From Pseudotabrizicola sp. (lineage in GTDB: Bacteria; Pseudomonadota; Alphaproteobacteria; Rhodobacterales; Rhodobacteraceae), in contig NZ_JAUXOV010000066.1 of the NCBI RefSeq assembly GCF_030684215.1, positions 1 through 53,272 of the forward strand: a stretch of 53,272 nt of DNA. Reading direction: 5' to 3'. Positions 4,307 to 44,553 of the stretch are shown piece after piece; position 1 is the first letter of the stretch, and every line of letters begins with the position of its first letter. Made by a program: the position numbers and the translations under genes. A model generated the notes under the pieces. That model was not told the DNA's origin and ran no database searches. It worked only from the letters and a program-made list of their open reading frames with translations.

Positions 4307-5664
4307 TCCGCTCGCTGCGCCAACGGCTGCTGGTGATTCTTGGCAGTAGTATTGTCGCGGCCTGGCTGGCCACAGCACTTTTCTCATATCTCGACACAAG
4401 ACAGCTGATTGATGAGATGCTGGACACCCAGCTGATGCAATCAGCCGATCTGCTTATTATCTTGCTCGACCGCCTGCCGCAGGGCGATCTTGCGGAACCT
4501 ATGCTGCAACAACCGGACGCGGATGCAAATCAGATGATTGCTTTTCGTGTGCAGGATGGCCCAGTTGGCACGACAGGCGGAACCGTGGGTTCATCGAATT
4601 TTCCAACGGGCCGTTGGCAACCAGGGCTTCGCGATGCAGCCAATGATGGTCAGATGTGGCGCGTGTTCGGTACATCGGACGGTGCGGGGCGACGTATCCA
4701 AGTGGCGCTGCGCCAAGATGTAAAAGGAAAATTCGCCGACCTCGTGGCCGTTCATATCCTGCATCCGCTGTGGATTGCGATTCCGCTTCTTGCAGGTTTG
4801 ATCTGGCTGTCTGTAGGATGGGGGCTGCGCCCGTTGCAGGACATCACCTCCGCCGTGGAGCGACGCAGCCCCGATGACATGCAGCCACTCGGCGTTGGTG
4901 CCGCGCCCGATGAAATCCGGCCGCTGCTTGAAGCACTTAACCAGCTGTTTGGCCGTATCGCCCTGCTTCTTGATCGCGAGCGCCGCTTTGCCGCTGATGC
5001 GGCGCATGAGTTGCGCACGCCGCTCGCAGCCATCAAAACGCATGCTCAGGTCGCCCGGCAAGAACGAGACCCCGGAAAGTGCGCATTGGCGATCGACGGG
5101 GTGATCGAAGGTGCCGACCGGGGCACCCGCCTGGTGGAACAGCTGCTTGTGCTGTCACGGCTGGAGCAGGAAGCGGTCATCGGCCCCTGCGAGACCGTGA
5201 ACATATCAGATTTGGTGATCGAATGCGTTGCATCAATAGCGCCGGAAGCCGCAACCGATGGTATCGATCTGGGGGCCGCTGACATGCTTTGTGGTCGGGC
5301 GGTTGTGAACGGGAACGCTGATCTTCTTCGGATCATGCTGCGCAATCTGCTTGATAATGCGGTTCGCTATACCCTTGAGGGTGGCGAGGTAACGGCCTCC
5401 GTCGAAACCGTCAATCAGGCTGTCATTCTTCGGATCACCGACGGCGGGCCGGGTATTTCCTCGGACTTGCAGCAGCGGGTGTTTGATCGATTTTACCGTG
5501 TGGCGGGGAGCGGGCAGCAAGGGTGTGGCCTGGGCCTTTCGATTGTTTTGCGCATTGCCGAACTGCATGGCGGAACTGTCAACTTTGAGGGCGGAGCAGG
5601 CGAAGGCACGTTTGCCGTTATCGTTACTCTGCCTATCGTCGACCGGATGAAATTGTCGAGCTGA
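4303..5664 (+). CDS. sensor histidine kinase (first system)
   Basis: A 453-aa membrane kinase partnering the regulator just upstream. A first membrane segment lies near residues 7-29, a sensor region of about 120 aa faces the periplasm, and a second membrane segment lies near 151-171. The HAMP-like linker leads to the dimerisation helix with phosphoacceptor H235 (DAAHELRTPLA). The ATP-binding domain shows the N box (NLLDNAVRYT) and a G box (GCGLGLSIV). The overall layout is that of QseC/BasS kinases. The signal sensed cannot be read from the sequence. A palindrome without T-run at 5730 follows the gene. Confidence 0.93.
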   Translation: MIRSLRQRLLVILGSSIVAAWLATALFSYLDTRQLIDEMLDTQLMQSADLLIILLDRLPQGDLAEPMLQQPDADANQMIAFRVQDGPVGTTGGTVGSSNFPTGRWQPGLRDAANDGQMWRVFGTSDGAGRRIQVALRQDVKGKFADLVAVHILHPLWIAIPLLAGLIWLSVGWGLRPLQDITSAVERRSPDDMQPLGVGAAPDEIRPLLEALNQLFGRIALLLDRERRFAADAAHELRTPLAAIKTHAQVARQERDPGKCALAIDGVIEGADRGTRLVEQLLVLSRLEQEAVIGPCETVNISDLVIECVASIAPEAATDGIDLGAADMLCGRAVVNGNADLLRIMLRNLLDNAVRYTLEGGEVTASVETVNQAVILRITDGGPGISSDLQQRVFDRFYRVAGSGQQGCGLGLSIVLRIAELHGGTVNFEGGAGEGTFAVIVTLPIVDRMKLSS

Positions 5665-5729
5665 GGGCCCTACACGCATCTCCTGCCGCTTTGAGACTGC
5701 GTATCCCAGAATGGGGATGCACTCCCAGT

Positions 5730-5747
5730 CCGCAGCGTGCGCTGCGG
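5730..5747. terminator. GC-rich hairpin between convergent genes
   Basis: CCGCAGCG and CGCTGCGG form a perfect 8-bp stem with a 2-nt gap, between the ends of the convergent histidine kinase and LysR genes. There is no T-run, so termination is a guess from position. Confidence 0.3.
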
Positions 5748-5784
5748 CCCAGTGTCGTATATCCGGGCCGATGAAACGTTCGGA

Positions 5785-6681
5785 TCAGATTTCCGGCCCT
5801 TTGGTACATTTTTTTAGGCTTTCCGCCAGTGCCGGTGTCAGGAATTCCAGCACGGCGCGGATGCGGGCGGTGTGGCGCAGATCTTCGTGGGTCAGCAGCC
5901 ACAGATCAAGGCCGAAGGACTCAGGCAGTTCTGCGACGCGGATCAGGTCGGGTTTTTGTTCGGCAATGGCACAGGGCAGAACCGCGAGGCCAAGGCCCGC
6001 CTTGGCCAGTTGCACGGTGCAGGCGACCGAGTTTGAGCGGATGGCAGGCCGCACTCCGGGCAAGAGTTGCGCGAAAGGCCGGGTCAGGGCTGCGTGGCCG
6101 CCATCAAGGCCGATCCAGCTATGCGTTGCCAGATCGGGGTCGGTATGGGCGGCACAATAATCCGGTGCGCCATAGACGGCAAACTTCAACTGGCCAACGC
6201 GGCGCCCCACCAAAGTCTCGGGCGGGGTGTTGCCGATGCGCAGGGCAATGTCGGTTTCACGCCGCGACAGGTCCAGCGTCTGGTTGCCAACGGCGATGCC
6301 GACCTCAATCTTGGGATAGGCCGCGCGGAACTTTGCCAGATGGTCCGGCAAGAGCCAGAGCGCAAGCATATCGGTCGCGGTGATCCGCACGGTACCACTA
6401 AGCCGCAAATCTTGCCCCGTCACGGTGCGGTCAAGCGTGGCGACGTCTTCCTCGATCCGTTCCACAATGCCCAGCGTCTCCACGCCTGCCGGGGTCAGCG
6501 CATAGCCGGTCGGCATCCTCTCAAACAGCCGCACGCCCAGCATCTCCTCAAGCCCGGCGATACGGCGAAAGACGGTCGAATGATTGACCCCAAGGCTGCG
6601 CGCGGCCGCTGACAGGCCGCCCTTGCGCGCGACCGCAAGAAACACCCGCAAGTCATCCCAATTCGCAAGCTGTGTATTCAT
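5785..6681 (-). CDS. LysR-family transcriptional regulator
   Basis: A 298-aa LysR-type regulator. The amino-terminal winged helix-turn-helix (residues about 6-65) has the usual layout: DLRVFLAVARKGGLSAAARSL, then STVFRRIAGLEEMLGVRLFER. The carboxy part is a periplasmic-binding-protein-like effector domain (about 90-290). It belongs by appearance to the group acting on nearby oxidoreductase or transport genes. It is divergent from the metal-binding protein and P-type ATPase genes starting at 6778, with 96 bp between start codons, so it could regulate them. However, metal-export ATPases are more often under MerR or ArsR control, so this assignment is only by position. Confidence 0.9.
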   Translation of the reverse strand: MNTQLANWDDLRVFLAVARKGGLSAAARSLGVNHSTVFRRIAGLEEMLGVRLFERMPTGYALTPAGVETLGIVERIEEDVATLDRTVTGQDLRLSGTVRITATDMLALWLLPDHLAKFRAAYPKIEVGIAVGNQTLDLSRRETDIALRIGNTPPETLVGRRVGQLKFAVYGAPDYCAAHTDPDLATHSWIGLDGGHAALTRPFAQLLPGVRPAIRSNSVACTVQLAKAGLGLAVLPCAIAEQKPDLIRVAELPESFGLDLWLLTHEDLRHTARIRAVLEFLTPALAESLKKCTKGPEI

Positions 6682-7030: not shown

Positions 7031-7060
7031 CCCACCGCACACATGCGGTGGGTTTTTCTT
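7031..7060 (+). terminator. intrinsic terminator or attenuator before ATPase gene
   Basis: CCCACCGCA (7031-7039) pairs perfectly with TGCGGTGGG (7044-7052) over a CACA loop and is followed by TTTTTCTT. It lies between the HMA gene and the ATPase gene in the same direction, only 16 bp before the ATPase start, so partial read-through probably sets the ratio of the two products. Confidence 0.75.
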
Positions 7061-7075
7061 GAAAGGAGAGAGCAC

Positions 7076-8995
7076 ATGTTTTCCGGGCTCATGGATATCT
7101 ACCGACACCCCGCTGATCGGCGCAAATGGCTGACCATCGCCAGCGGCGTGTTCATCACCGCAGCACTGACCGCCTGGTACGGCTTCGGGATCGCCGCCCC
7201 CTGGGCACCGCTGATGACGATTGCCGCCGTGCTGGCCGGCTATGACATTGCCCTGCGGGCCTGGGCGTCACTGAAGCTGCGCCATCTCAGCATCGAGTTG
7301 CTGGTGATCGTAGCGGCCACCGGTGCGCTGTTCATCAACAACCACTGGGAATCCGCCGCCGTCACCTTCCTGTTCATGCTGGGCGCCTGGCTTGAGACCC
7401 GCACCATGAGCCGCACCCGTGGCGCGCTGAAGGCGCTGATCGACGCGGCACCGGCGACCGCAACAGTCCTGCGAAATGGCGAGACGGTTCAAGTGCCCGC
7501 CCATGAGGTGCAACTTGGCGAAACCGTTCTGGTCAGGGCCGGAGAGCGGCTGCCGGTCGACGGCGAGGTGGTTGAGGGCACCGCCGCGGTCAATGAGGCC
7601 TCGATCACCGGCGAGCCGATCCCGGCCGAAAAATCTCCCGGCTCAAAGGTCTTCGCCGGAACTCTGGCCGAAAACGGTCTGCTGCACCTGCGTGCCACCG
7701 GCGTTGGCGCCGATACCACGCTGGCCCGCATCATCACCCGTGTTGAGGAGGCGCAAGAGGCCAAGGCCCCGGCGCAGCGGATGATAGAATCCTTTGGGCG
7801 CTGGTACACGCCCGGCGTGTTCGTGATGGCGGTGGTCAGCTATATCGTCACGCGCAACGTCGAACTGGCACTGACGCTGCTGGTGGTTAGTTGCCCCGGC
7901 GCGCTGGTCATCTCGACCCCGGTTTCGGTGGTCGCAGGGATCGGCCGTGCCGCCCGCGCCGGTATTCTGATCAAGGGCGGCGAGCATCTGGAGAACGCCG
8001 GGCGCATCACCGCACTGGCGCTGGATAAAACCGGCACGCTGACCGAAGGCCAGCCGCGTCTGGCCGAAGTCATCGCGCTGGCAGGCCAAAACAAGGCCGA
8101 TGTCCTGCTCTGGGCGGGTATCGCCGAGACTGGATCGAACCACCCGCTGGGCCGTCCGATCATCGAGGCCGCGCGCAAGCAGGGCCCGCTGCCCACTGCC
8201 GCGTCACTTGAGGAAATCGCCGGCATGGGGCTGATTGCGCGCCATGACGGTCACGACATCGCCGTCGGCAGCCACCGCCTGTTCGATCACCTCAAGATCG
8301 CCTTCAACGCCGAGGCGAAAGACGGCATCGCCCGCCTGCACGGGCTGGGCCATACGGTGGTGATCGTCGCGCGCAATGGCGAAGTGGTGGGTCTGCTTGG
8401 TCTGGCCGATATGGCGCGCGCCAGTGCCAAGCCGATGATCGACCGGTTGCACGCCCTTGGGGTGCACCGCGTGGTGATGCTGACCGGCGATCAGCGCCCG
8501 GCAGCCGAGGCGATTGCAGCGGCGGTCGGCGTCGACGAAGTGCATGCCGGGATGATGCCCGACGACAAGCTGGAGCGCATTCAGGCAATGCGCGCCGAAG
8601 GCCTGCACGTGGCGATGGTCGGCGACGGTATCAACGACGCTCCGGCGCTGGCGGCGGCTGATATCAGCATCGCCATGGGTGCGTCGGGCAGCGACATCGC
8701 CATCGAGACGGCGGATATCGCGCTGATGACCGACGATCTGGGCAAGATCGCCGAGGCGATGGAAATCGCCCGCGCCACCTTGGCCAACATGCGCCAGAAC
8801 CTTGTGATCGCGGTGCTGACGGTCGTGGGGCTGCTGTTTGGGGTCTATACCGGCTCGATCCACATGGCGGGCGGTATGCTGGTGCACCAGCTCTCAGTGC
8901 TGATCGTCATCCTGAACGCCATGCGCCTGCTGCGGGTGCCAGCCGCTACGAAAGCACACAGGGCTGAAGCCAAGGCCAAAACAGCCGTGGCATAG
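7076..8995 (+). CDS. P1B-type heavy-metal ATPase with CPG motif
   Basis: A 639-aa metal-export ATPase. The start at 7076 is chosen for its GAAAGGAGAG ribosome site; the longer frame from 7043 overlaps the hairpin. Domains in order: membrane helices, actuator domain with TGEP, a membrane motif, phosphorylation motif DKTGTLT (Asp317), ATP domain with the HP dipeptide (SNHPLGRP) and GDGINDAP. The membrane metal-binding motif reads SCPGAL (Cys273-Pro-Gly275); the usual Zn/Cd/Cu pumps have CPC and the Co group SPC. The last helix carries HQLSVLIVILNAMRLL. Neither feature fits a standard P1B class, so the metal is open. It works with the HMA protein upstream. Confidence 0.9.
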   Translation: MFSGLMDIYRHPADRRKWLTIASGVFITAALTAWYGFGIAAPWAPLMTIAAVLAGYDIALRAWASLKLRHLSIELLVIVAATGALFINNHWESAAVTFLFMLGAWLETRTMSRTRGALKALIDAAPATATVLRNGETVQVPAHEVQLGETVLVRAGERLPVDGEVVEGTAAVNEASITGEPIPAEKSPGSKVFAGTLAENGLLHLRATGVGADTTLARIITRVEEAQEAKAPAQRMIESFGRWYTPGVFVMAVVSYIVTRNVELALTLLVVSCPGALVISTPVSVVAGIGRAARAGILIKGGEHLENAGRITALALDKTGTLTEGQPRLAEVIALAGQNKADVLLWAGIAETGSNHPLGRPIIEAARKQGPLPTAASLEEIAGMGLIARHDGHDIAVGSHRLFDHLKIAFNAEAKDGIARLHGLGHTVVIVARNGEVVGLLGLADMARASAKPMIDRLHALGVHRVVMLTGDQRPAAEAIAAAVGVDEVHAGMMPDDKLERIQAMRAEGLHVAMVGDGINDAPALAAADISIAMGASGSDIAIETADIALMTDDLGKIAEAMEIARATLANMRQNLVIAVLTVVGLLFGVYTGSIHMAGGMLVHQLSVLIVILNAMRLLRVPAATKAHRAEAKAKTAVA

Positions 8996-9046: not shown

Positions 9047-9193
9047 CGACTCGTAGCGCGGCGTGTCCGGTCCATAAATGTTTGATGATATTCCAGCCTG
9101 CAATGATCTGTCGCAATGACATGAAAATTTCTTCCGATCACCCTTCTTGAAAACAAAATGCCCATAAAGTGGCTTTCCCAGGGGGGGATCAAT

Positions 9194-10303
9194 ATGCATT
9201 GGATAACCAAAACACTCGCGCCTAGCATCATCTTATGCGGCCTGATCGCCGTTGGCTTTTCGGCCACGGCACAGGAACAGAGAAAGCCCGATCTGGGGAA
9301 GATCACCGAGGCGTGGCTCTCCTCGCCCCATGCCGACCGAAGCGCGGAAGCCTTCAAGCACTGGAATGATGAGGACATCCGGATGGTGCCAAAGGAATGT
9401 TCGACCTGCCATACCAGTCGCGGGATCATCGACTATCTGGGCACGGATCTGCGCGCGGTGAATGTGATTGAGCAGCCGCAGCCGCTGGGCTCGACCGTGG
9501 ATTGCGTGACCTGCCACAACCCGAAATCAATGGCGCTGCAAAGCGTGGTGTTCCCCTCCGGCGCGCGTGTTGATGGGCTGGGCAAAGAGGCGATCTGCGC
9601 CACCTGCCATCAGGGTCGCGCCTCGGGTACGGATGTAACGGCAGCGGTTGCGGGGCGCGAGGATGATGTGGTCGCGGGCGATCTGACCTTCATCAACGTC
9701 CATTACAAAGCGGCGGCGGCAACCCAGATGGGCAGCGTGGCGGCGGGCGGCTATCAGTATGAGGGCCAGACCTATGCCGGCATTTTCATCCATGTGAAAG
9801 AGGAACCATCGACCTGCCTGTCGTGCCACAACCAGCACAGCCTGAAGGTAAAACCGATTGACACCTGCGTGACCTGCCACAAGGGGGCGACCAAATATTC
9901 CGATATTCGCAGCACAGAAATGGACGTGACCGGAACAGGCGACACGGCGCAGGGTATTGCCCATTCGATCACAACATTGCACGCCATGCTGGGGGCCGCG
10001 ATCCAGAAATACGCCGCCGAAGTTGCGGGGACGCCGGTTGTCTATGACCCGCACGCCTTCCCGTATTTCTTCATCGACACGGATGGAAATGGCGCAATCA
10101 CCCCCGGCGAGGCGATCTTTCCGAACCGCTATCAAAGCTGGACACCGCGCCTGCTGAAAGCGGCCTATAACTATCAGTTCATCGCCAAAGACCCCGGCGC
10201 CTACACCCATAACCCGCATTACGCGATCCAACTGCTGCAAGACAGCATGGCCGATCTGGGCAAGGCGGTAGAGGTTGATATGGCCGGGATGGTCCGGCCG
10301 TAA
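9194..10303 (+). CDS. periplasmic pentaheme cytochrome c
   Basis: A 369-aa exported protein. The start at 9194 gives a signal peptide (residues 1-26, cut after ATA). Five CXXCH haem sites are visible: residues 69-73, 104-108, 135-139, 208-212 and 225-229. The last 140 residues lack haem motifs but contain an EF-hand-like calcium loop, D295-x-D297-x-N299-x-x-I-x-x-x-E306. Multihaem cytochromes of this kind carry electrons in the periplasm between a membrane oxidoreductase and a terminal acceptor. It points toward the flavin/PepSY operon and ends 84 bp before the convergent ApbE gene. It lacks the 49-bp promoter element of its neighbours. The partner and the acceptor are not known. Confidence 0.88.
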   Translation: MHWITKTLAPSIILCGLIAVGFSATAQEQRKPDLGKITEAWLSSPHADRSAEAFKHWNDEDIRMVPKECSTCHTSRGIIDYLGTDLRAVNVIEQPQPLGSTVDCVTCHNPKSMALQSVVFPSGARVDGLGKEAICATCHQGRASGTDVTAAVAGREDDVVAGDLTFINVHYKAAAATQMGSVAAGGYQYEGQTYAGIFIHVKEEPSTCLSCHNQHSLKVKPIDTCVTCHKGATKYSDIRSTEMDVTGTGDTAQGIAHSITTLHAMLGAAIQKYAAEVAGTPVVYDPHAFPYFFIDTDGNGAITPGEAIFPNRYQSWTPRLLKAAYNYQFIAKDPGAYTHNPHYAIQLLQDSMADLGKAVEVDMAGMVRP

Positions 10304-10387: not shown

Positions 10388-11398
10388 TTACAACAGTCCG
10401 TGTTCGCCAGCTTCTGACCATTCACCCTCTTTTGCCAAGCCCTCCGCCGCTTGACCAAACACGCGCCCAACAGGCATACTTCGAATGCTATCCGTATTGT
10501 CACGCAGCAAAAACAACGCGTCGAGCCTAAATTGTCGGGCAAGCGTCGCACCATCGTCCAAGCCCATAACCATCAGCGCGGTCGCCCAGGCATCGGCCTC
10601 GGCACAGGTCTGGGCAATGACGGTGACCGAGACAGGCGGGGCCAGCAATGGCGCGCCTTTGGTTGGGTCCATGGTATGCGACAGGCGGCGTCCCTGCACA
10701 TTGACCCAGTGACGGTAATCGCCCGAGGTCGCAACGGCGGCGTCTTGCAGCGCCAAGATGGAATGCGGAGTGCGGCGCGTCATGTCGGGGGCCTCTACCG
10801 CGATCGTCCAGGGGGTGCCGTCCGGCCTTAACCCAAGCGCGCGCATCTCGCCGTCGATGCCGACAAGGGCGGAGGTAATCCCAAAACCGGTCAGCACCTC
10901 AGTCAGCCGGTCGACACCGTACCCCTTGGCAATCCCGTTCAGGTCTAGCGTGATCGGGGCACGCTTGCGCGCGCGCCCCGCTGCATCAAGGTCTAACACC
11001 TCATACGCAGGCAAGCGCGGCGCGCTCATCGCGGCGCGGATGTCTTCGGGTGTTGCGCATTGCGGACCAAAGCCCCACGCTGCCACGGCGTCGCCCATGC
11101 CAATATCAAACGCCCCATCTGTCGCCCGCCCAATTTTCAAGCCAAGGCGCAAAACCGTCATCAGCCGCGCCGGAACTGCCACCCATTCATCGACAGGTGC
11201 CGCGTTCAGACGCGTCAGATCGCTGGTGGGGTTCCATGTGGACATCTGATCATCCACCTCTCCTACCGCTGCTTGAAGTGCGGCCTGCACGGGTGCGGGG
11301 TCAAACCCCTCTGCCCTATAAAACAGCGCAGACCAGCGCGTGCCCATGGTGGGGCCGTTCAGCGCATGGCGCTGCAAGTCAGTAAACATCTTCGACAT
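10388..11398 (-). CDS. FAD:protein FMN transferase, ApbE family
   Basis: A 336-aa ApbE-family enzyme, which attaches FMN covalently to Thr or Ser of target proteins. Family blocks are visible: GPTMGTRWS near the amino end, STWNPTSDLTRLN, DGAFDIGMGDAV, LDLNGIAKGYGVD and VGIDGEMRALG. Unlike many relatives it has no evident signal peptide or lipobox, so it may act in the cytoplasm or modify the cytoplasmic part of its target. Its start overlaps the end of the PepSY/flavoprotein gene by 20 bp, so it is the last gene of a four-gene operon. The likely substrates are partners in the same operon, although I see no certain flavinylation motif in them. Confidence 0.9.
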   Translation of the reverse strand: MSKMFTDLQRHALNGPTMGTRWSALFYRAEGFDPAPVQAALQAAVGEVDDQMSTWNPTSDLTRLNAAPVDEWVAVPARLMTVLRLGLKIGRATDGAFDIGMGDAVAAWGFGPQCATPEDIRAAMSAPRLPAYEVLDLDAAGRARKRAPITLDLNGIAKGYGVDRLTEVLTGFGITSALVGIDGEMRALGLRPDGTPWTIAVEAPDMTRRTPHSILALQDAAVATSGDYRHWVNVQGRRLSHTMDPTKGAPLLAPPVSVTVIAQTCAEADAWATALMVMGLDDGATLARQFRLDALFLLRDNTDSIRSMPVGRVFGQAAEGLAKEGEWSEAGEHGLL

Positions 11399-13583
11399 AA
11401 CGCCCCTCTGCTTTCAGTGCGATTGGCGTCAGCCCAACGGGGGCGAGAATATCCGCCAGCGCATCGGCGACCCCGACGGCCATCTCTCGGCCGCCGCACA
11501 CCATCACCCGCGCGCCATCTCGGATCAGTCGGGCAACCTCCGCCCCCTCAGCGCGCAACGCGTCCTGAACATAATGCGGCTTGGCCCCGCGTGATATGGC
11601 TGTGACCAGTCGGGTCAGGTGACCCTGCGCCTGCCAGACCCCGAAATCTTCGCCGTAAAGAAAGTCACTGTCGGGGTGGCGCATGCCAAAGAACAGGTGA
11701 ATCGGGCGGTTGCGGGCATTGGCACGGGTGAAGCCTGCAAGCGGGCCGATGCCGGTGCCCGCCCCGATCAGAATCAGCGGTGCAGCGCTGCGGTCCGCGT
11801 GGAACCTGGGGTTGGGGCGCAGGAAGGCGGCCACGCTGTCACCGGGTTCCAACGCCATAAGCTGGCCGGAGCAAAGACCGCCGGGCAGTTTTCGGACCAC
11901 AACCTCAACAAAACCATCCCGACGTCCCGAGGCCAGCGAATAGAAGCGGGGCAACGTCGCACCCTCGGGCAGGATGCCCAAAAGGTCGCCCGCCTGAAAC
12001 CGACCAAAGCCACGGCCCGTCAAACGTCGCCAAAGCGAAATCTTCGGCAGGGCAAAGCGCAGGATTGCGGTCTGGGCCTGCACCTCGGCCCCGTAATCGC
12101 GGCGGGACATCAGCGTCAAAGGCTGCGATTGCGGCACAACCGGTAGGTGGGTGAGGGCAAGGGTGATGCCCATAGCGGCCCCAAGCGCCTGGCCCCAGCG
12201 GGCAAAATCCTGCGGCGATTGGCGGTCGACGGTATCAAAAGCAAGCAGCTCCTGCCAGCCTTTGGCCTCGGCGGCAGTAGATACCGCTTTGGCAAAGGTG
12301 CAGTATTGCGGAAAACTGCGATCCCCAAAGCCAAGCACCGCGAGCGGGATTGCGGGGGCGGCGTCACCCTGCTCAAGCCGGTCAAGAAAACCTCTGGCCG
12401 AGGCAGGTGCAGCCCCATCGCCATAGGTCGCGGCAAGCACAATAATACGGTCCGCACGCGCATAGCGTTTTGGATCAAAAGCCGACATCGGTGCGGCATG
12501 AACAGTTTGCCCGGCCTCGGTCAGCGCGCGGTGCAGCGTTGCCGCAAAGCCCCAGGTGCTGCCGCCCTCGCTACCAACCAGCAGAATCGTTTGCGCCTGC
12601 TCGGCGGGTTGATTGCCCCGGATCTGCGGCCTGCCGCGTCGCGCCGCCAGCCAGATCACAACACCCGTCACGCCCATCACCGGCACGCCAAGCGCCATCA
12701 TCCCCAGCACCAACCCCAAAACTGCCGCCCCCTGCCCGGTATGCAGCATCACGATGGTTTCCGATGCCCGTTCCCACCCGGTCAGATCGGCCCAGCCAAG
12801 CAACGCGCCGGTGCCTTGGTCAAGGTATCCGGTGCCGCTGTCAGTCTTCAGCGTAAAAACATCAGTGGCGTCATCCAGATAGGGAAAGCTCAACTCGCGC
12901 AGCGCTGACGCTGGGGTCTGCCCGAGCAGATCAATTGCACCCGGTATCATACCCGTCTGACCACTTGGCGCTGCATAGCTCAGCGTAGTGCCGCCATCGG
13001 GGAGAAAATCAAAGGTGGAGGCGGTCATCCACAGCGCCGTAAGCGAGGACAGCACAAGGCCGACAATGGCGACGCGCGCGATTTCCACATGCAGCCGCCC
13101 CGATAGCGGTCCGCGCAAGGGTGCGAACCAGCGCCGCCAGCCGCCGGCACGCCGCACCACAAGCACCGCGCCAGACAGCGCCAGCACCAGCATTGCCGCC
13201 GCCCCTGCTGCCATAGCAATGCGCCCGCCATCCCCCAAGAACAGTGAGCGGTGCAGGTTGGTCAGCCAGCGTTCAAATCGATTGGGGTCGGCTGATGCGA
13301 CGCCCTGGCCGGTTGCAGGGTCGATGACCGCCGCGCCTGGTGTGCCGCCATCGAACCAATAAGCGGTGATCCGGCCAGACGGCGCGCGCCGGATTTGTTC
13401 AACCCCCGGATAGGCAGTCTGGATGCGCGCTGCGAGGTCGGCCACGCTCAGTCCGGCCTCGACCTGCGGCGCAGTCAAACGCTCGGCAGCTGGAAACACC
13501 GACAGCACAGCGCCGCTCAGCGCCAGAACGGTTATCAGGGCAAGGGCCAACAGACCCGGCCAACGGTGAAGGATGCGGATCAT
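11379..13583 (-). CDS. PepSY membrane protein fused to flavodoxin and NAD(P)H reductase
   Basis: A 734-aa fusion. The first ~320 residues are a PepSY-associated membrane unit: a helix near 8-28, PepSY-like periplasmic segment, and further helices near 120-140, 170-190 and 285-315. Then comes a flavodoxin-like domain (LLVGSEGGSTWGFA, later VLAATYGDGAAP) and a CysJ-like ferredoxin-NADP reductase module with the FAD motif RFYSLASGR, the NAD(P) loop GAGTGIGPLAGF and the terminal YVEDVY. It should take electrons from NADPH in the cytoplasm through FAD and FMN and across the membrane. Related fusions occur in ferric-siderophore or periplasmic reduction clusters with DUF2271 proteins and ApbE. It is the third gene of the operon. 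Confidence 0.92.
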   Translation of the reverse strand: MIRILHRWPGLLALALITVLALSGAVLSVFPAAERLTAPQVEAGLSVADLAARIQTAYPGVEQIRRAPSGRITAYWFDGGTPGAAVIDPATGQGVASADPNRFERWLTNLHRSLFLGDGGRIAMAAGAAAMLVLALSGAVLVVRRAGGWRRWFAPLRGPLSGRLHVEIARVAIVGLVLSSLTALWMTASTFDFLPDGGTTLSYAAPSGQTGMIPGAIDLLGQTPASALRELSFPYLDDATDVFTLKTDSGTGYLDQGTGALLGWADLTGWERASETIVMLHTGQGAAVLGLVLGMMALGVPVMGVTGVVIWLAARRGRPQIRGNQPAEQAQTILLVGSEGGSTWGFAATLHRALTEAGQTVHAAPMSAFDPKRYARADRIIVLAATYGDGAAPASARGFLDRLEQGDAAPAIPLAVLGFGDRSFPQYCTFAKAVSTAAEAKGWQELLAFDTVDRQSPQDFARWGQALGAAMGITLALTHLPVVPQSQPLTLMSRRDYGAEVQAQTAILRFALPKISLWRRLTGRGFGRFQAGDLLGILPEGATLPRFYSLASGRRDGFVEVVVRKLPGGLCSGQLMALEPGDSVAAFLRPNPRFHADRSAAPLILIGAGTGIGPLAGFTRANARNRPIHLFFGMRHPDSDFLYGEDFGVWQAQGHLTRLVTAISRGAKPHYVQDALRAEGAEVARLIRDGARVMVCGGREMAVGVADALADILAPVGLTPIALKAEGRYVEDVY

Positions 13584-13596
13584 GGCCCTGCCTTTC

Positions 13597-14067
13597 TTAC
13601 ATGTCGTAGGTGAAGCTGGCGACGTAGCGACGCCCTTTCACGGCTGTTCCGGCACCAGTCGTGGTCAACGGCACCGCAACCTCATTCGGGCTGTTGCGCA
13701 TCTCCTCAACCGCGGCGTCGATATGCAGGGTATAGCCCGCGTCAAACAGCGCATCGGCCAGATCCAGCGTAATCTCCAGTGTCCGGCCTGCGCCAACACT
13801 GGCCCCGGTGATACCGTTGATCTGGCCCAAATCGCCGCCAGTGGCACGATACCAATCGCTCAGGCTATCGTAATATTTCGACTTGCCACCCGCCATCCAA
13901 AGCGTGCCTGCATAGGCCCCCGAAGGATCAGTGACATAAAGCGCAAGATAGGCACCGTCGCCGCCGTAATTGCTCAGTTGCGTGGTCAGCGTGACCGGCC
14001 GTGCAATAGCAAGGCCGGGAAGCGTCAGCGCCGTTGTCAGCGCCAGAGTTGCGAGAAGGGATTTCAT
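13597..14067 (-). CDS. DUF2271 family periplasmic protein
   Basis: A 156-aa exported protein with a signal peptide (MKSLLATLALTTALTLPGLA, cut after AIA). The mature part is beta-rich and matches the DUF2271 pattern: YLALYVTDPSGAYAGTLWMAGGKSKYY, then SDWYRATGG, and a closing RRYVASFTYDM. The family is of unknown biochemistry but is regularly encoded beside PepSY-domain flavoreductases and ApbE, as here, and may be a periplasmic partner of the reductase. It starts after AAAAGGAAAA and ends 13 bp before the reductase gene. Confidence 0.85.
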   Translation of the reverse strand: MKSLLATLALTTALTLPGLAIARPVTLTTQLSNYGGDGAYLALYVTDPSGAYAGTLWMAGGKSKYYDSLSDWYRATGGDLGQINGITGASVGAGRTLEITLDLADALFDAGYTLHIDAAVEEMRNSPNEVAVPLTTTGAGTAVKGRRYVASFTYDM

Positions 14068-14110: not shown

Positions 14111-14548
14111 TCATTTCACCAGAACCTTTGGTGGCGCGCCGTTGCCAAAGAGGGGGTTTGGAGGTGCCATGCTGGGTGCTGTGGGGTTTACTGCGTCCTT
14201 GCGATCACGACGCGGACGATCCTTGTCATCGTCATCATCGTCATCATCGTCGTCATCCCCGTCATCACTCTTGTATTTCATCTTGATTATCCGAAGCGTC
14301 GCGGGGTCGATCTTGGCCTTGATTTCCCGCCCAGTGGCATCGCGGCCTTTGATCTCATAGCAACCGTCATCGATCTTGATGCGGCGCAGGGTCCAGCCGT
14401 TGTCTTGCGCCAAGCGCTCCACCGCCTCGCGCGGCTGCCAATTGGCCAGCGGCACAGAGCAATCATCATCGGCAAACGCCATGCCCGCCGGGAGGGTGGC
14501 AAGCAAAGCGAGGACTGTCAGAGTCCTTTTTATGGGGGTCTTTTTCAT
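14111..14548 (-). CDS. exported PepSY-domain protein with poly-aspartate tract
   Basis: A 145-aa protein. The start at 14548 is preceded by AAGGAGA; the frame reaches further up but the signal peptide begins here (MKKTPIKRTLTVLALLATL, cut after AFA). Residues about 26-85 form one PepSY domain (WQPREAVERLAQDNGWTLRRIKIDDGCYEIKG). Then follows an acidic run with 13 Asp out of 14 residues, and a proline-rich tail. PepSY domains bind or gate redox partners or proteases. The acidic run could bind calcium or ferric iron, which would suit a reductase that reduces bound metal. It is the first gene of the operon and lies 44 bp downstream of the 49-bp element. Confidence 0.85.
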   Translation of the reverse strand: MKKTPIKRTLTVLALLATLPAGMAFADDDCSVPLANWQPREAVERLAQDNGWTLRRIKIDDGCYEIKGRDATGREIKAKIDPATLRIIKMKYKSDDGDDDDDDDDDDDKDRPRRDRKDAVNPTAPSMAPPNPLFGNGAPPKVLVK

Positions 14549-14592
14549 TGGGGGTCTCCTTCCACCTGATAAGATCACCCTAGAGGGGGCAC

Positions 14593-14641
14593 CTGAGGGG
14601 GGGCTGACGGTCTGGCCGTTTTTGCTTCAGCTTGGCGTCAG
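14593..14641 (-). promoter_or_regulatory. 49-bp palindromic element, copy A
   Basis: CTGA at 14593 and 14604, TCAG at 14627 and 14638: two 11-bp-spaced pairs in opposite orientation with 19 bp between them. The inner edge is 44 bp before the start codon of the PepSY operon. The 11-bp period is the one at which OmpR/PhoB-family dimers bind. The same arrangement recurs at 15370 and 17018. The likely binder is the response regulator encoded at 17111. Confidence 0.8.
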
Positions 14642-14644
14642 GAA

Positions 14645-14683
14645 CGCGACAAAAAAGAAGGCCGACTGCGACAGTCGGCCTTT
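14645..14683 (-). terminator. intrinsic terminator, minus strand
   Basis: AAGGCCGACTG and its perfect complement form an 11-bp stem with a 3-nt loop; read on the minus strand it is followed by TTCTTTTTTG. It closes the transcript of the broken gene at 14718-15326 and insulates it from the PepSY operon promoter. Confidence 0.85.
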
Positions 14684-14717
14684 CATTGAAGTGTGCCCAT
14701 GTGGCGCGACCCTTGGT

Positions 14718-15326
14718 TCAGTTCCGCTTGTCGGTTTCATGCGGATTGCCAACGCCCATCATCGGGAAGGGGCTTGAACCATTAAGCGGGCCGGGATCTA
14801 TTTGAAATCCGGCGGGGCGTGGGATGCTCAGCTGCGCTTGCAACGATGCGCCGACAAGCAGTGCCGCGGGGTAAAGCACCTGAACATCGCTCACCTCATG
14901 CCAGATCATCCGCTCGGCAAGACGCACGGTTTCGGGTTGCCCGGCCTCATCCGCTGCGGCGTAGAGATCAACAAGGGCGATAACGAGGTCCACATCGCTG
15001 TCGTGTATCTGCGCCAGCTCTGCCTCCAGCACCTGCAACCGTTCAGGCATTTGCGGGTCCTTCGGCATCTGCCCACCGGCGGCGACATCGGTAAAGCCAA
15101 GGATCGGCAAGATGAGCCTTTCCTACGCTGCGTTATGCGGCCCCATAAGGTCGGCCGCGACGCGAGCTGTGCTGCCAACCGCGCCGGACTTGTCCGCGAC
15201 CTGTTCAAGCTGTGACTGGAAATCCGCGTGAACGGCGCTCAGGGAATATGGCGCCTCAAAGGGGGCGGCCAATACTGTCGTGGCCAGTGCGGACAGGACT
15301 GCGGATACAACAAGGTTCGTATGCAT
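14718..15326 (-). pseudogene. exported protein gene interrupted by one in-frame TAG
   Basis: Two frames, 15326-15123 (67 codons) and 15110-14718, lie in the same phase and are divided by a single TAG at 15125-15123. The first has a start with GAAAGGAG and a signal peptide (NLVVSAVLSALATTVLA). Reading through gives LMGPHNAA, then the stop, then ERLILPILGFTD, which is a continuous helical motif, and a helical rest (LVIALVDLYAAADEAGQPE). One change (for example from CAG or GAG) explains it. The protein family is not known to me. The intact promoter element B and terminator suggest the loss is recent; suppression or a sequencing error are alternatives. The second frame has an ATG at 15110 but no evident ribosome site. 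Confidence 0.7.
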
Positions 15327-15369
15327 GATATTCTCCTTTCATCTGATGTACTCAATCTGCGCTCACCAA

Positions 15370-15418
15370 CTGATCCGCACCTGACGAAGCCGCAATTATT
15401 GCTTCAGCTTGCTGTCAG
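15370..15418 (-). promoter_or_regulatory. 49-bp palindromic element, copy B
   Basis: CTGA at 15370 and 15381, TCAG at 15404 and 15415, the same 11-34-45 spacing as at 14593. Its inner edge is 43 bp before the start codon at 15326. The first TCAG pair shares CTTCAGCTTG with copy A. Confidence 0.8.
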
Positions 15419-15427
15419 AAATGACAA

Positions 15428-15452
15428 AGCCCCGCCGGGAACCTGCGGGGCT
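15428..15452 (-). terminator. terminator after membrane flavocytochrome gene
   Basis: AGCCCCGC and GCGGGGCT form a perfect 8-bp stem with a 9-nt loop; on the minus strand it is followed by TTTGTCATTT. It lies 43 bp past the stop codon of the 15496-16851 gene. Confidence 0.65.
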
Positions 15453-15495
15453 TACGGGCACTGTTTTGCGGCCTATCGATCTGATGAACTGCATC

Positions 15496-16851
15496 TCATG
15501 CGAATTCAAAATGCTCAAACCGCACCCGTCGCGGCGTCTGGCCGCGGGTTTTCAGATCCTTGAGGATTCCATCCTTCAAGCCCTTCGGCCCGCAGAACCA
15601 AAGTTCGGCCTCCCCAACCGGGAAGCGGACCGACCCGATCACATGGTCCCCTGTCAAGCGCCCATCGCGCGCAGTCGCAACCACCTCATAGCTGAAGCGC
15701 GGATTGCGCCCGACCGCAGCCTGCAGGATTTCCAGACCGATTGCGTCTTCCGGCGTGCGGACACAGTAAAGGAGGTGGATTTCACGCCGCTCCGTCTCCG
15801 CGAGGCTCTCTGCCCAGGCGAGAAACGGCGTGATGCCAATACCGCCAGCCAGCCAGATCTGCCGCGTGCCGCCCTTGCGGAAATTGAACCGTCCGTAGGG
15901 GCCTTCGACCTGCACGCTCATGCCCGCTCGCAGGGCGTCGGGCAGTCGTCTTGTCCAACCGCCGAGCGCCCGTATATACAGTGTCAGCGTACCATCAGGG
16001 CGCGCGGCGCTGGCAATTGTGAAGGGATGCGGCTCTGACAACCCAGCCTCAGGCGCGCGGACAAAGGCAAACTGCCCCGGCCGCCAGCGCATGGCCCGCC
16101 CCTTGGGTGTCAGGGTCAGTGCTGTAATCTCCCCTTGCCGGCTGACCCGACTGACTGTGAACGCCCGGCGGCGCAGATGCGGGGCTATGAACTCGGTATG
16201 GACCCATGAGATCAGCCCGGCGATTCCAAACAGGTTCAGAAGCACTGATAGCGACGGATCAACCCCGGTTGGCAGGTCGACGAAAAATTGGTGAAACACG
16301 ACGATAGCGAAAAGAACGCCCATGAAGCGATGGCTGAAACGCCAGAGCGGATAAGGAATCTCCAGCCTGACAAACGGAAGCCGTCGGAACCAACTGATCG
16401 CGATCAACGCAAGCAGCGCATTGAAAGCGAACTCGCCTGCGTCGCTGGCGAAATCGCCCAACCCGGTCTCCCGGACCGTGCGCTCAAAGTCGGGTTCAAA
16501 CTGGTCATGCAGGATCATCAGGACCAGCGCCGATATGCCAAGCCATTTGTGAACCCGGTACATGCGGTCGAGCCCGCCAAAGGCAGGCTCCAGCAGGCGC
16601 GGGCGCGCCGCAAGGATCAGGGTCTGGCTCATGGCGACGACGGCAGCGGCCCCAACAGCGATTCCGATGGCCACATCAAATCCATAGGGCGCATAAGTGA
16701 CGAAGCCGAGGACGCCCGCCAGAATGCACGGCAGCCCGACCATCAAGAGCCCGGTCACATTCAGGGCGCTGCTCGCGGCAGGAACCCCGGGGATGGATCG
16801 AAGGTTTGACGCCAGGCGGGTATTGCTGGCGCGTTCTGCTACATCCGACAT
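15496..16851 (-). CDS. ferric-reductase-like membrane flavocytochrome
   Basis: A 451-aa protein. The start at 16851 (MSDVAERASN) is chosen because a small upstream ORF ends 7 bp before it; an in-frame ATG at 16890 is an alternative. The first ~220 residues hold six or so membrane helices of the ferric reductase-like transmembrane type, with histidines in HKWLGI, ILHDQF, FSHRF and VFHQFF that can hold two b haems. Then comes an FAD domain (PHPFTIAS) and an NAD(P) domain (LAGGIGITPFLAW, FCGPKGLKDG). It should move electrons from NAD(P)H across the membrane to an outside acceptor such as ferric iron or a periplasmic partner. Expressed with the leader ORF from element C. Confidence 0.88.
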   Translation of the reverse strand: MSDVAERASNTRLASNLRSIPGVPAASSALNVTGLLMVGLPCILAGVLGFVTYAPYGFDVAIGIAVGAAAVVAMSQTLILAARPRLLEPAFGGLDRMYRVHKWLGISALVLMILHDQFEPDFERTVRETGLGDFASDAGEFAFNALLALIAISWFRRLPFVRLEIPYPLWRFSHRFMGVLFAIVVFHQFFVDLPTGVDPSLSVLLNLFGIAGLISWVHTEFIAPHLRRRAFTVSRVSRQGEITALTLTPKGRAMRWRPGQFAFVRAPEAGLSEPHPFTIASAARPDGTLTLYIRALGGWTRRLPDALRAGMSVQVEGPYGRFNFRKGGTRQIWLAGGIGITPFLAWAESLAETERREIHLLYCVRTPEDAIGLEILQAAVGRNPRFSYEVVATARDGRLTGDHVIGSVRFPVGEAELWFCGPKGLKDGILKDLKTRGQTPRRVRFEHFEFA

Positions 16852-16858
16852 TGCCTCG

Positions 16859-16966
16859 CTACTCCCTGTCCTGCCGCGCATCGGCCTCACGCAGGGGCCG
16901 ATGCGCCAAAGCCACCCCAGCCGGAAAGACCATCAGAAGGTCGAGAATTGTTAATGTCTTCTTCAT
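16859..16966 (-). CDS. 35-codon ORF with signal-peptide-like sequence upstream of flavocytochrome
   Basis: ATG at 16966 follows AAGGAG with good spacing. The product begins MKKTLTILDLLMVFPAGVAL and ends after 35 residues with a TAG 7 bp before the flavocytochrome start. The amino end closely resembles the signal peptide of the PepSY protein at 14548 (MKKTPIKRTLTVLALL, then LPAGMAFA). It may be a decayed PepSY gene that has kept its start and now serves as a translational leader, or a real small exported peptide. It lies 51 bp from element C. Confidence 0.55.
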   Translation of the reverse strand: MKKTLTILDLLMVFPAGVALAHRPLREADARQDRE

Positions 16967-17017
16967 AGGTCAAACTCCTTGCAGGGTTCATCGTGCTACA
17001 ACTCATGCGCGGTGAAA

Positions 17018-17066
17018 CTGACAGCATCCTGAAGCGTTTGCCCTGGCCGCATCAGCGTTGCGTCAG
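17018..17066. promoter_or_regulatory. 49-bp palindromic element, copy C, between divergent promoters
   Basis: CTGA at 17018 and 17029, TCAG at 17052 and 17063, again with offsets 0-11-34-45. It sits between the leader ORF/flavocytochrome transcript (start codon 51 bp to the left) and the response regulator (start codon 44 bp to the right). The symmetry of the element suits divergent control and means the regulator probably controls its own gene. Confidence 0.8.
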
Positions 17067-17110
17067 GTAGACCGATCATTAAGGGTCATAGTGAAAGGAA
17101 CCAACCGGCC

Positions 17111-17770
17111 ATGCGCATCCTGCTGATTGAGGACGACACCGTCTTGGGCTCTGCCGTGCGCGACCAGATCGCTGGCGACGGCCAGTCGGTGGATTGGGTC
17201 ACGCGACTTGATGCGGCGGGCGATGCGATTGCAGGGGCGGCCTATGATCTGCTCTTGCTTGACCTGATGCTTCCGGATGGGCGCGGCATTGGGTTTTTGA
17301 AAACCTTGCGCGCGCGGGGCGATGTGACGCCGGTGATTATCCTGACCGCGCTGGACCAGATTTCCGACCGGATTGAGGGGCTGAATGCGGGTGCGGATGA
17401 CTACCTTGTGAAACCCTTTGATCTATCGGAACTTTCCGCACGGATCGGGTCCGTCGCGCGCCGCTATTCCGGCAACCCCAACCCGATCATCAGCCACGGC
17501 GCGCTGACCATCGACATCGCGTCGCGCACCATCCGCAGCGAAGGCAAGCCGATCCTGCTGACCGCCCGCGAATGGGCGTTGTTTGAGGCGTTTCTAGCCC
17601 GCCCCGGTCAATTGTTGTCCAAACCGCAGCTTGAAGAAAAGCTTTATACTTTTGACGCGGAAGTGGAGAGCAACACCATCGAAGTTCATGTCAGCCGCCT
17701 GCGCAAAAAGCTTGGTGCAAGCGTGATCGAGACTGAGCGCGGCATGGGTTATCGTCTGGGCACACCATGA
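17111..17770 (+). CDS. OmpR/PhoB-family response regulator (second system)
   Basis: A 219-aa regulator. Receiver domain with D8/D9, phosphoacceptor D51 (LDLMLPDGRG) and K101 (YLVKPF), then a winged-helix domain (AREWALFEAFLARPG, VSRLRKKLGA) ending RGMGYRLGTP. GAAAGGA lies upstream of the ATG. The stop overlaps the kinase start (ATGA). Element C lies 44 bp before the start. I infer that it binds the CTGA/TCAG repeats and so controls the PepSY/flavin operon, the broken exported protein and the flavocytochrome; the sequence shows only the shared sites and the location. Confidence 0.93.
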   Translation: MRILLIEDDTVLGSAVRDQIAGDGQSVDWVTRLDAAGDAIAGAAYDLLLLDLMLPDGRGIGFLKTLRARGDVTPVIILTALDQISDRIEGLNAGADDYLVKPFDLSELSARIGSVARRYSGNPNPIISHGALTIDIASRTIRSEGKPILLTAREWALFEAFLARPGQLLSKPQLEEKLYTFDAEVESNTIEVHVSRLRKKLGASVIETERGMGYRLGTP

Positions 17771-19092
17771 GGTGGCCGCGCAGCCTGCAATCGCGTCTGG
17801 CCCTGTCGCTGGGTGTTCTGCTGACGCTTCTGTGGGTGGCAGCGGCTTGGGGGACCAGTGTCGCACTTCGGCATGAAATGGATGAGGCCTTCGATTCCGC
17901 CCTGCAAGAAACCGCACAACGCCTGCTGCCGCTTGCGGTTCTGGACGTGCTTGGGCGCGACGAGGATGATACCCCGCAACGTCTGGCCACTATCCGCGAC
18001 CACGATGAATTCTTCACGTATATTGTCCGCGACGCACGGGGCCAGATGCTGTTGCAATCCCACGCGGCAGAGGCTGCGGTCTTTCCCCCTTATGATGGGG
18101 TGGGGTATCACCAGACTGCAACCCACAGGCTCTATACCGAGGCCGCCTTGCAAGGCAGCATCCGGATTACCGTGGCGGAGCCCGTGGAGCACCGCAGCAC
18201 GGTTGCACGCAACATCCAGATCGGTCTTGCACTGCCGCTGCTTGTCGTAATTCCCGCAGCCCTGCTCGCCATTCTTCTGGCGGTTCGGACAAGCCTGCGC
18301 CCGCTGAGAGAGTTCCGCAAAACTCTTGGCGGACGCGATGCGCATGACCTGTCGCCGGTCCCGACCAAAGGCCTGCCTTGGGAAATCGCCCCGGTAGCGG
18401 CCACACTGAACGACGTCTTTGAGCGCTTGAAAGCCAGTTTTGATGCCGAGCGCAGCTTTGCCGCCAATGCCGGGCATGAATTGCGCACCCCGCTTGCGGG
18501 GGCCATCGCACAGGCACAACGCCTTCGGTCCGAAACCAGTGAGCCTGGCACCGTGCAAAGGGCCACTGACATTGAGGCCACACTGAAGCGGCTAACACGC
18601 GTGGCCGAACGCCTGATGCAACTGGCCCGCGCCGAAGGCGGGCAGCTTCGCCTGGATCACGCTTCGGACCTGCGCCTGGTGGCACGTCTTGTCGTTGCGG
18701 ATATTGACCGCACGGCTGCGCCTGATCGCATTAGACTGACGCTGCCGGAACAGCCCGTGATGTCAGACCTCGATCCCGATGCATTCGGCATCCTTTGCCG
18801 GAACCTGATTGAAAATGCCCTGCGTCACGGACAGGAAGGCAGCGCGGTCGAGGTTGAGTTGACGGCAGACGGCACTTTGATCATTGCAAACGCGGGGCCG
18901 GTTGTTCCTGCGCAAACGCTGGCCCGCCTTACTGCCCGGTTTGAGCGCGCGGGGGCAAGTGCCGAGGGAAGCGGTCTTGGCCTTGCGATTGTCGCAGCGA
19001 TTGCGGACCGGTTGGGAAGCGAGTTGATCCTCAAATCACCCCGGACCGGCCAAGCATCGGGTTTTGAAGCTCGTCTGAAACTATCGGTTTAG
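17767..19092 (+). CDS. sensor histidine kinase (second system)
   Basis: A 441-aa kinase. Membrane segments near residues 11-34 and 150-172 bracket a periplasmic sensor of about 115 residues rich in charged residues. A linker is followed by the phosphoacceptor helix with H237 (NAGHELRTPLAG), the N box (NLIENALRHG) and the G box (GSGLGLAIV). The nucleotide domain is short and lacks an obvious F box. It is translationally coupled to the regulator upstream. Given the regulon it probably senses metal, flavin or redox state at the cell surface, but no specific ligand motif is visible. Confidence 0.92.
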   Translation: MRWPRSLQSRLALSLGVLLTLLWVAAAWGTSVALRHEMDEAFDSALQETAQRLLPLAVLDVLGRDEDDTPQRLATIRDHDEFFTYIVRDARGQMLLQSHAAEAAVFPPYDGVGYHQTATHRLYTEAALQGSIRITVAEPVEHRSTVARNIQIGLALPLLVVIPAALLAILLAVRTSLRPLREFRKTLGGRDAHDLSPVPTKGLPWEIAPVAATLNDVFERLKASFDAERSFAANAGHELRTPLAGAIAQAQRLRSETSEPGTVQRATDIEATLKRLTRVAERLMQLARAEGGQLRLDHASDLRLVARLVVADIDRTAAPDRIRLTLPEQPVMSDLDPDAFGILCRNLIENALRHGQEGSAVEVELTADGTLIIANAGPVVPAQTLARLTARFERAGASAEGSGLGLAIVAAIADRLGSELILKSPRTGQASGFEARLKLSV

Positions 19093-44321: not shown

Positions 44322-44553
44322 AAACAGAACGGCCCCCCGAGTTATCCCGAGAGGCCGATTTGCCGATCAAACAGAGTTGGCGCTCTGATCTGACCACGTT
44401 CTGCACGGGAAGAATCGCGCAAATCGCCTAGCAAGTCAACGCCGCGTCAGCGGTGAACGAAGGTATTTTGCCCTTTGCCGACCTTCGTTGCGTTCGGAAA
44501 CCGTCAGGTACAGCCTGATCGGTACGGGAAGTCGCATGTTTGCGTGAAAACCA
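44322..44553 (-). ncRNA. repB-repC intergenic region, candidate antisense ctRNA
   Basis: In repABC plasmids this gap encodes on the minus strand a small antisense RNA that controls repC. A 9-bp stem, AACGAAGGT (44456-44464) with ACCTTCGTT (44481-44489) and a 16-nt loop, is visible, and a second short one (ACCG..CGGT) lies near 44500. The exact ends of the RNA cannot be read; I give the whole gap. Confidence 0.45.

Follow-up and report, generated by a model that had tools for sequence, protein, structure and literature searches.

This study concerns a 49-bp element, CTGA-N7-CTGA-N19-TCAG-N7-TCAG, that occurs three times in 53,272 nucleotides of DNA from Pseudotabrizicola sp. (NCBI RefSeq assembly GCF_030684215.1, contig NZ_JAUXOV010000066.1, positions 1 to 53,272 of the forward strand); this whole stretch is called the window. 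The element stands before genes for a two-component system, made up of a response regulator (RR) and a sensor kinase, and before genes for a module of secreted and membrane proteins with a likely role in electron transfer. Each copy has two inverted arms, and the arm nearer the gene is called the gene arm and the other the back arm. The three copies, here named operators A, B, and C, and the features around them are listed below with strand and basis.

14593–14641: operator A, exact match; gene arm 14593–14607 toward the gene starting at 14548 (−), back arm 14627–14641
14577–14582 (−): −10-like hexamer TAGGGT of operator A, 10 bp past the last TCAG, at a position kept in relatives
14658–14682 (−): terminator-like hairpin of the upstream gene, adjoining the back arm of operator A (hairpin scan)
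15370–15418: operator B, exact match, laid out as A; gene-facing arm toward 15326 (−)
15354–15359 (−): −10-like hexamer CAGATT of operator B, read from the sequence
15427–15444 (−): terminator-like hairpin of the upstream gene, adjoining the back arm of operator B (hairpin scan)
17018–17066: operator C, exact match, bidirectional; the left arm faces the PepSY_2 remnant and the ferric reductase, the right arm the RR
17002–17007 (−): −10-like hexamer CATGAG of operator C, leftward, read from the sequence
17077–17082 (+): −10-like hexamer CATTAA of operator C, RR-facing, read from the sequence
17111–17770 (+): RR (Response_reg and Trans_reg_C; PmrA/QseB-like), the presumed operator binder (profile matches, co-occurrence)
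17767–19092 (+): sensor histidine kinase (2CSK_N, HisKA, HATPase; QseC-like) (profile matches)
16862–16966 (−): leader open reading frame (ORF), signal-peptide remnant of a PepSY_2 gene (comparison with relatives)
15496–16851 (−): ferric-reductase-like membrane flavocytochrome (Ferric_reduct, FAD_binding_8, NAD_binding_1), start inferred (profile match)
14718–15326 (−): interrupted exported protein in two frames, 15123–15326 and 14718–15110 (ORF list, relatives)
14111–14548 (−): PepSY_2 secreted protein with an Asp-rich stretch, encoded first in the operator A operon (profile match, ORF list)
13597–14067 (−): DUF2271 protein with a TGAS motif, the predicted flavinylation site (profile match, translation)
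11379–13583 (−): PepSY_TM, flavodoxin, and NAD-binding transmembrane oxidoreductase (profile match)
10388–11398 (−): ApbE, FAD:protein FMN transferase (above the Pfam cut-off; NCBIfam ApbE model below its cut-off)

A scan of the window agreed with an earlier note on this DNA, which had reported three exact copies with the tetramers at offsets 0, 11, 34, and 45. Allowing up to three mismatches added no match within the window (in 100 shuffles the mean was 0.16 and the maximum 1). The operators lie 44 bp (14548, −), 43 bp (15326, −), 51 bp (16966, −), and 44 bp (17111, +) from the start codons that they face, as the 43–51 bp of the earlier note had it. The bases between the tetramers do differ among the copies, as was also noted there in arguing against a simple duplication; they are not free, however, since relatives have a preferred arm sequence, at non-RR sites most commonly GCTTCAG-CTTGCC-GTCAG.

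Over the whole genome (4.44 Mb in 81 contigs) the pattern gave five matches at up to two mismatches, all of them exact, compared with 0.001 expected from uniform bases; the reversed pattern, searched over the whole genome as a control, gave none. The two sites outside the window are both on contig C36, in a paralogous module, and all five sites lie within the two modules. On C36 the RR and kinase genes are divergent from genes for a PepSY protein and a ferric-reductase-like protein, and the module continues with an Asp-rich secreted protein, DUF2271, PepSY_TM-flavodoxin, ApbE, and a P-type ATPase-like gene (named by tblastn with the window proteins, except for the Asp-rich protein and the ATPase, which were labelled by reading). 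The earlier idea of a local regulon was right in that the element marks the module it adjoins, and too narrow in that a second module carries it as well.

The best NCBIfam models for the RR were PmrA and QseB and that for the kinase was QseC, all scoring well below their cut-offs: the RR reached 201.5 against a cut-off of 330 for the PmrA (BasR) equivalog NF007928, and 199.4 against 345 for the QseB equivalog NF007663. The closest solved chains are BasR/PmrA (8jo2, 4s04). The RRs of the window and of C36 have in common the segment ESNTIEVHVSRLRKKLG, which we take to be the recognition helix, and through it both should read all five sites.

Co-occurrence of element and regulator was determined in a family sample of 295 genomes from 294 genera, our own genome included, with RR matches accepted at E values up to 1e-60. 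The exact pattern was present in 57 genomes and the RR in 68, with both in 56. The RR was therefore found in 56 of the 57 genomes with the pattern versus 12 of the 238 without it (Fisher p = 4e-47, or 1.6e-46 minus our own genome; the genomes are less independent than the test assumes, through common ancestry and horizontal transfer). In the 57th pattern genome, G131, the match lay in unrelated DNA (L024). Thirty foreign loci, from 30 of the 56 other pattern genomes, were inspected, and 28 encoded RR or module proteins within 1.5 kb of the pattern; the exceptions were L024 and L013, whose match recurs in Brevirhabdus pacifica (L233) and whose genome, G177, also holds a proper site. These counts answer largely in the affirmative the question posed in the earlier note, whether the pattern is confined to the neighbourhood of homologues of this regulator. 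A sample drawn across the class (385 genomes, with 380 from outside the family) contained seven other matching genomes, all seven with the match beside an RR homologue of 42–78% identity, and the 12 matching genomes of 398 in a phylum-wide sample were all within the class, with none among the 263 outside it. Conservation of the regulon extends to other Alphaproteobacteria.

A pattern scan of the GTDB set matched at least 119 stretches, and 80 loci among the matches listed were classed. Sixty of these carried RR, kinase, or module proteins. Named genera with related loci, among the matches listed, included Sulfitobacter, Roseovarius, Celeribacter, Paracoccus, Thioclava, Hoeflea, and others, and further Mesorhizobium, Xanthobacter, Thalassospira, and two Burkholderiales metagenome-assembled genomes (MAGs). 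Fourteen of the 80 had no related gene nearby (L198, with a 38% identical RR 3.6 kb away, was counted among them), and exact matches therefore do occur by chance.

The reverse comparison began with the regulator. Seventy-five RR matches outside our own genome and the C36 RR made up 76 loci chosen independently of the pattern; the window RR and a third RR of our own genome, described below, were left out of these counts. Where the RR was at least 60% identical, 61 of 65 loci carried the layout with up to two mismatches at 30–300 bp upstream (46 exact, 14 with one mismatch, and 1 with two). Below 60% identity only 2 of 11 did, both beside DUF2271. Random windows from the same RR loci had 5–8 mismatches in 329 of 336 cases, 4 in three, and 0 in four, and these last four presumably fell on real sites. 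Three of the four loci with an RR at least 60% identical but no element (L133, L137, and L138) were also without a PepSY_2, DUF2271, PepSY_TM, or ApbE match. The same layout built on a different word was considered for the RRs below 60% identity and rejected: 9 of the 11 loci had 3–5 mismatches, like random windows (127 of 142).

The co-occurrence points to the RR as the protein that would bind these operators. That the element belongs instead to some other regulator acting on these modules, such as a metal or redox repressor, is in our judgment highly improbable. In Caulobacter and Shewanella, Fur represses PepSY-like clusters (PMC8238504), which would suit such a regulator. The element, however, is found in the RR's own promoter, even for the 57–58% identical RRs that stand beside the module in L139 and L140. 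It is also absent from genomes that have the module protein and not the RR: DUF2271 (E up to 1e-15) was present in 62 of the 295 genomes, five of which had no RR, and none of these five had the element (one of them, G212, is only 62% complete). In addition, OmpR-family regulators typically use an 11-bp direct repeat at −35.

The geometry of the element was examined in 82 RR-centred loci totalling 737 kb (80 fetched regions, the window, and C36; five of the regions were chosen by the pattern). TCAG half-sites were spaced with a period of 11 in 246 cases compared with 22 expected from uniform bases, and other periods from 7 to 16 gave 17–97, in keeping with the OmpR-type 11-bp period pointed out in the earlier note. 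CTGA-N7-CTGA was followed by TCAG-N7-TCAG at a gap of 19 bp (86 sites), 20 bp (12 sites), or 30 bp (1 site), and at no other gap between 0 and 60. The everted order occurred once and same-direction pairs never. An exact site ended 40–58 bp before the RR start in 54 of the 82 loci, the window included. Gap 20 was found only at RR-proximal sites within this set, and all 41 distinct other sites had gap 19; outside the set, G252 has a gap-20 site (L282, 5760) that is not beside the RR. The suggestion in the earlier note that the arms might be looped together found no support and was dropped, because the gap between the pairs is just 19–20 bp and fixed.

The 98 sites with gap 19 or 20 fell in 65 of the 82 loci and comprised 91 distinct 49/50-mers. 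This diversity, the differing intervening bases, and the five sites in one genome compared with 0.001 expected leave the chance of a dispersed repeat, a recent duplication, or random occurrence practically nil. The co-occurrence with the RR had already refuted it, even though the 14 unassociated loci among the 80 listed ones show that a single exact match can arise by chance.

A promoter-like footprint accompanies the sites. When positions are counted from the first base of the gene-proximal TCAG, an A was present at +15 in 146 of 152 gene-facing arms (50 of 54 facing the RR, 52 of 54 facing the divergent gene, and all 44 at other sites), and in only 6 of the 44 back-facing arms of non-RR sites. 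When the non-RR sites were collapsed to 17 representatives less than 80% identical, the A remained in 17 of 17 gene arms versus 4 of 17 back arms. An A there is what a −10 hexamer spanning +14 to +19, 10 bp past the box, would show as its conserved second base; transcription would then begin close to +26, and the start codon would follow about 45 bp past the box. Taken position by position over +14 to +19, the commonest bases of the 44 gene arms at non-RR sites spell CAGATT, the hexamer of operator B. Operator A has the A in its gene arm and, through an A-run preceding the terminator, in its back arm too. Judged by the +15 A, the box would lie one turn before −10, in the place of −35, as expected for class II activation. 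Seven terminator-like hairpins were found in the scanned stretch, compared with 2.3 expected.

The tetramers are inverted repeats and could in principle form an RNA stem-loop, either an attenuator or a terminator. We rejected this explanation as scarcely credible, because the free positions of non-RR arms match each other no better than shuffled partners do (0.332 vs. 0.328 ± 0.011), those of RR-site arms little better (0.515 vs. 0.470 ± 0.014), and the element lies upstream of the conserved −10-like A and would therefore not be in the gene's own transcript.

The back arms are informative about how the two halves may work together. At non-RR sites they were better conserved than the gene arms and closer to consensus (GCTTCAGCTTGCCGTCAG), and they mostly lacked the −10-like A. 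This is most simply explained if the promoter on the opposite side needs the inverted arm, with two dimers in fixed contact. The proposal of two dimers in the earlier note fits this fixed gap of 19/20 bp and the −10-like signal at a set distance from the gene arm. The arms might instead be two independent class II boxes placed back to back without cooperation, their spacing a matter of history and the back arm serving repression, antisense transcription, or backup. RR sites, with the −10-like A in both arms, look as simple divergent promoters would. At non-RR sites, however, the back arm in the sequences listed usually runs into a GC-rich, terminator-like stretch and nevertheless matches the consensus better than the gene arm, and the gap is 19 bp at all 41 distinct sites of the 82-locus set; we regard independent boxes as unlikely.

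Taken together, the pattern, its co-occurrence with the RR, the fixed spacing, and the promoter-like footprint make it very probable that the 49-bp element serves as operator for the PmrA/QseB-like, OmpR-family RR next to it and for the C36 paralogue, with a promoter-side dimer helped by an inverted dimer. Each TCAG-N7-TCAG, an 11-bp direct repeat, would take one phosphorylated, head-to-tail RR dimer. The gene-facing arm would stand in for −35, 10 bp before −10, where the dimer could contact RNA polymerase (class II activation, rather than repression). The second dimer, on the inverted arm across the fixed gap, would stabilize the first by contact. At the site between the RR and PepSY genes both arms would be promoters, so that one complex would raise the two-component system and the first electron-transfer operon together, presumably in response to a metal or redox signal; at the other sites one arm would be the promoter and the inverted arm would be retained as a helper. 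The output would be the PepSY_2, ferric-reductase, DUF2271, PepSY_TM-flavodoxin, and ApbE proteins, a system that would pass electrons from NAD(P)H in the cytoplasm to flavinylated proteins of the periplasm.

Several observations weigh against this interpretation. Locus L135 keeps the RR and the module with a degraded element (three mismatches at gap 24), and L141, whose RR is 56% identical, has DUF2271, PepSY_TM, and ApbE and no element. The other sampled species of the genus, G135, had no RR, DUF2271, or element at the thresholds used. Chance exact matches occur, both in the 14 of 80 listed loci and within the family (L013 and L024 of 30). The −10-like hexamers fit sigma-70 poorly, and a generic promoter scan called none of them. 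The argument for cooperativity comes solely from the conserved spacing. Finally, with a PepSY_2 remnant behind operator C and an interrupted gene behind B, the copy of the module in the window may be partly decaying.

First genes behind the arms were mostly secreted PepSY_2-like, Asp-rich secreted, or DUF2271 proteins, usually starting 42–52 bp away (the automatic choice of start took an out-of-frame ORF in several loci). The leader ORF that the earlier note had placed before the flavocytochrome is present, but it amounts to 35 codons of signal-peptide remnant, similar to the beginning of the PepSY_2 genes that relatives have intact in this place. Operator C is intact though the PepSY_2 gene behind it has been reduced to this signal peptide; relatives keep the gene beside the RR. 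Behind operator B, which is perfect, the exported protein is broken by a frame change, and intact relatives stand behind the same operator in G106 and G288. The G288 relative, on a contig other than that of the RR, has a weak hemerythrin-like match below the cut-off. The G288 operator copy faces this exported protein beside SLAC1/TehA-like and NarI-like genes (L283, 427–1035 and 1595–4246; labels by reading), neighbours hinting at a link to nitrate respiration. In G252 a DUF2271 gene with its operator lies about 30 kb from the RR. From these distant sites in G252 and G288, the element also labels module genes that do not adjoin the RR.

The module has the make-up of a PepSY-like flavinylated system: PF03929, PF02424, and PF10029 matches above their cut-offs are clustered, and the DUF2271 protein contains TGAS. 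The ApbE flavinylation motif is [S/T]GA[S/T], and systems of PepSY_TM, DUF2271, and ApbE have been proposed for ferric reduction (PMC8238504). By analogy with that paper and one on iron in Caulobacter (PMC11870441), the likely role of the module, for iron or other metals, is to move electrons from NAD(P)H via its ferric-reductase-like and PepSY_TM members to flavinylated proteins in the periplasm. A multiheme cytochrome c gene (9158–10303, +) and a P-type ATPase gene (7043–8995, +) adjoin the ApbE end of the module without the element.

Other parts of the genome contained features related to the system. Beside the C36 module is the third RR (L005; 3351–4133, −, and 3979–6200, +), which is PmrA-like and 52% identical, with a kinase; its neighbours are sulfatase-like (EptA-type) and DgkA-like genes (labels by reading). 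The element is absent at this RR, where the best layout of any word has five mismatches. A stricter one-arm pattern matched four times in our own genome, three times inside known operators and once, unexplained, on contig C68. This last (G000:C68:60652–60679) lies away from the modules; it is one strong half-element, has an A at +15, and may be a weak sixth site or chance. The window also contains RepA/ParA-like and RepC replication genes (42139–45690), and an ORF at 43302–44321 sits between them, where repB would be. This suggests that the window belongs to a plasmid or chromid of the repABC type, in which case this copy of the module may be mobile.

The distant matches raise the question of whether the arrangement extends beyond this clade. 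Associated sites among the matches listed had the A at +15 in at least one arm in 78 of 78 cases and in both arms in 39 of 78; unassociated sites had it in at least one arm in 10 of 14 and in both in 1 of 14. Because so many unassociated matches have the A, its presence in one arm is not decisive for a single locus. Six of the 80 listed loci were near a distant RR-like protein (36–42% identical), at 45–104 bp in five and 975 bp in L186. Exact copies with the −10-type A in both arms lie between a 37–42% identical RR and a divergent cupredoxin/multicopper oxidase gene in Marinobacter (L165), and between such an RR and an efflux adaptor-like gene in a Clostridiales MAG (L209; labels for both from reading translations). 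The L209 element (1200–1248), flanked by an RR-kinase pair and a HlyD-like gene, is an almost perfect palindrome in which both arms have TATGCT at +14. It is possible, and we offer it tentatively, that the inverted double direct repeat with a fixed gap of 19/20 bp is a distinct, portable class of operator for OmpR-family RRs well outside the clade, at which a single four-subunit RR complex would drive two divergent promoters together and tie autoregulation to output. It is weakened by four exact matches near distant RR-like proteins (L181, L183, L186, and L192), in which one arm or both are without the A, and by the chance exact matches.

The arrangement has partial precedents. The earlier note had called the layout uncommon, and no regulon-wide, fixed case was found in the literature searched, but single-promoter precedents exist at Salmonella PhoP ybjX and E. 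coli ArcA dctA. In Salmonella PhoP architecture II (ybjX, virK) a direct box lies about one turn (12 nt) before −10, with a second box mostly upstream, which in ybjX is reversed and 30 nt upstream; mutating this reverse-oriented box cut ybjX expression more than 8-fold (PMC3335776). That layout, a proximal direct box with a reverse upstream box, is present here, where the reverse box would be predicted to boost the proximal one. In Salmonella, however, gap and orientation vary and the half-site is (T/G)GTTTA, whereas here the half-site is TCAG and the inverted pair is fixed at 19/20 bp across the regulon and many genera. E. coli dctA has a two-repeat ArcA site and a weaker two-repeat site on the opposite strand with 24 bp between them, and from the extended footprint the authors suggest protein contacts; unlike the present element it is one weak case, ArcA sites having no conserved position or orientation (PMC3798270). 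The P. aeruginosa PhoP box, GTTCAG-N5-RTTCAG, resembles our arms in its TTCAG half-sites and 11-bp period, but it is a single box with a different regulon, that of Mg2+ limitation (PMC3156716, PMC7916210). Caulobacter UzcR belongs, like our RR, to an alphaproteobacterial two-component system, in its case a metal-responsive one; the UzcR-type m_5 motif was considered and set aside, as its half-sites are CATTAC-N6-TTAA, not TCAG (PMC8963506).

The PmrA/BasR and QseB regulators, the named relatives closest to our RR by model score and solved structure, have binding sites with 11-bp direct repeats like those of our element, and our RR differs in falling below both equivalog cut-offs. Their repeats are of the TTAAG type. 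E. coli ygiW-qseB was rejected as a homologous operator, as it has one CTTAA-N6-CTTAA repeat only; a word-free scan of it gave two weak candidates, each with three mismatches and one of them at gap 19.

The output genes match the PepSY flavinylated systems in combining PepSY_TM, DUF2271, and ApbE; for those systems Fur regulation is mentioned (PMC8238504), whereas here there would be a dedicated two-component system with a common operator. A literature search, mostly of literature outside subscription, found no description of this operator or of this two-component/PepSY regulon. For flavinylated PepSY/DUF2271 systems, whose signals and roles are poorly known, the element would supply a regulator of their own, its operator, and a regulon with sharp limits, and the activator of the kinase, once found, would tell what these electron-transfer systems serve. 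The 98 exact sites in 65 loci, with matched promoter-bearing and promoter-less arms, are also an unusually clean natural data set on how two OmpR-family dimers are placed with respect to one another and to RNA polymerase. The parts of the system are known; new, as far as that search extends, would be the fixed inverted double box as a regulon operator across genera, its bidirectional use at the RR's own promoter, and the dedicated two-component control of PepSY/DUF2271/ApbE genes.

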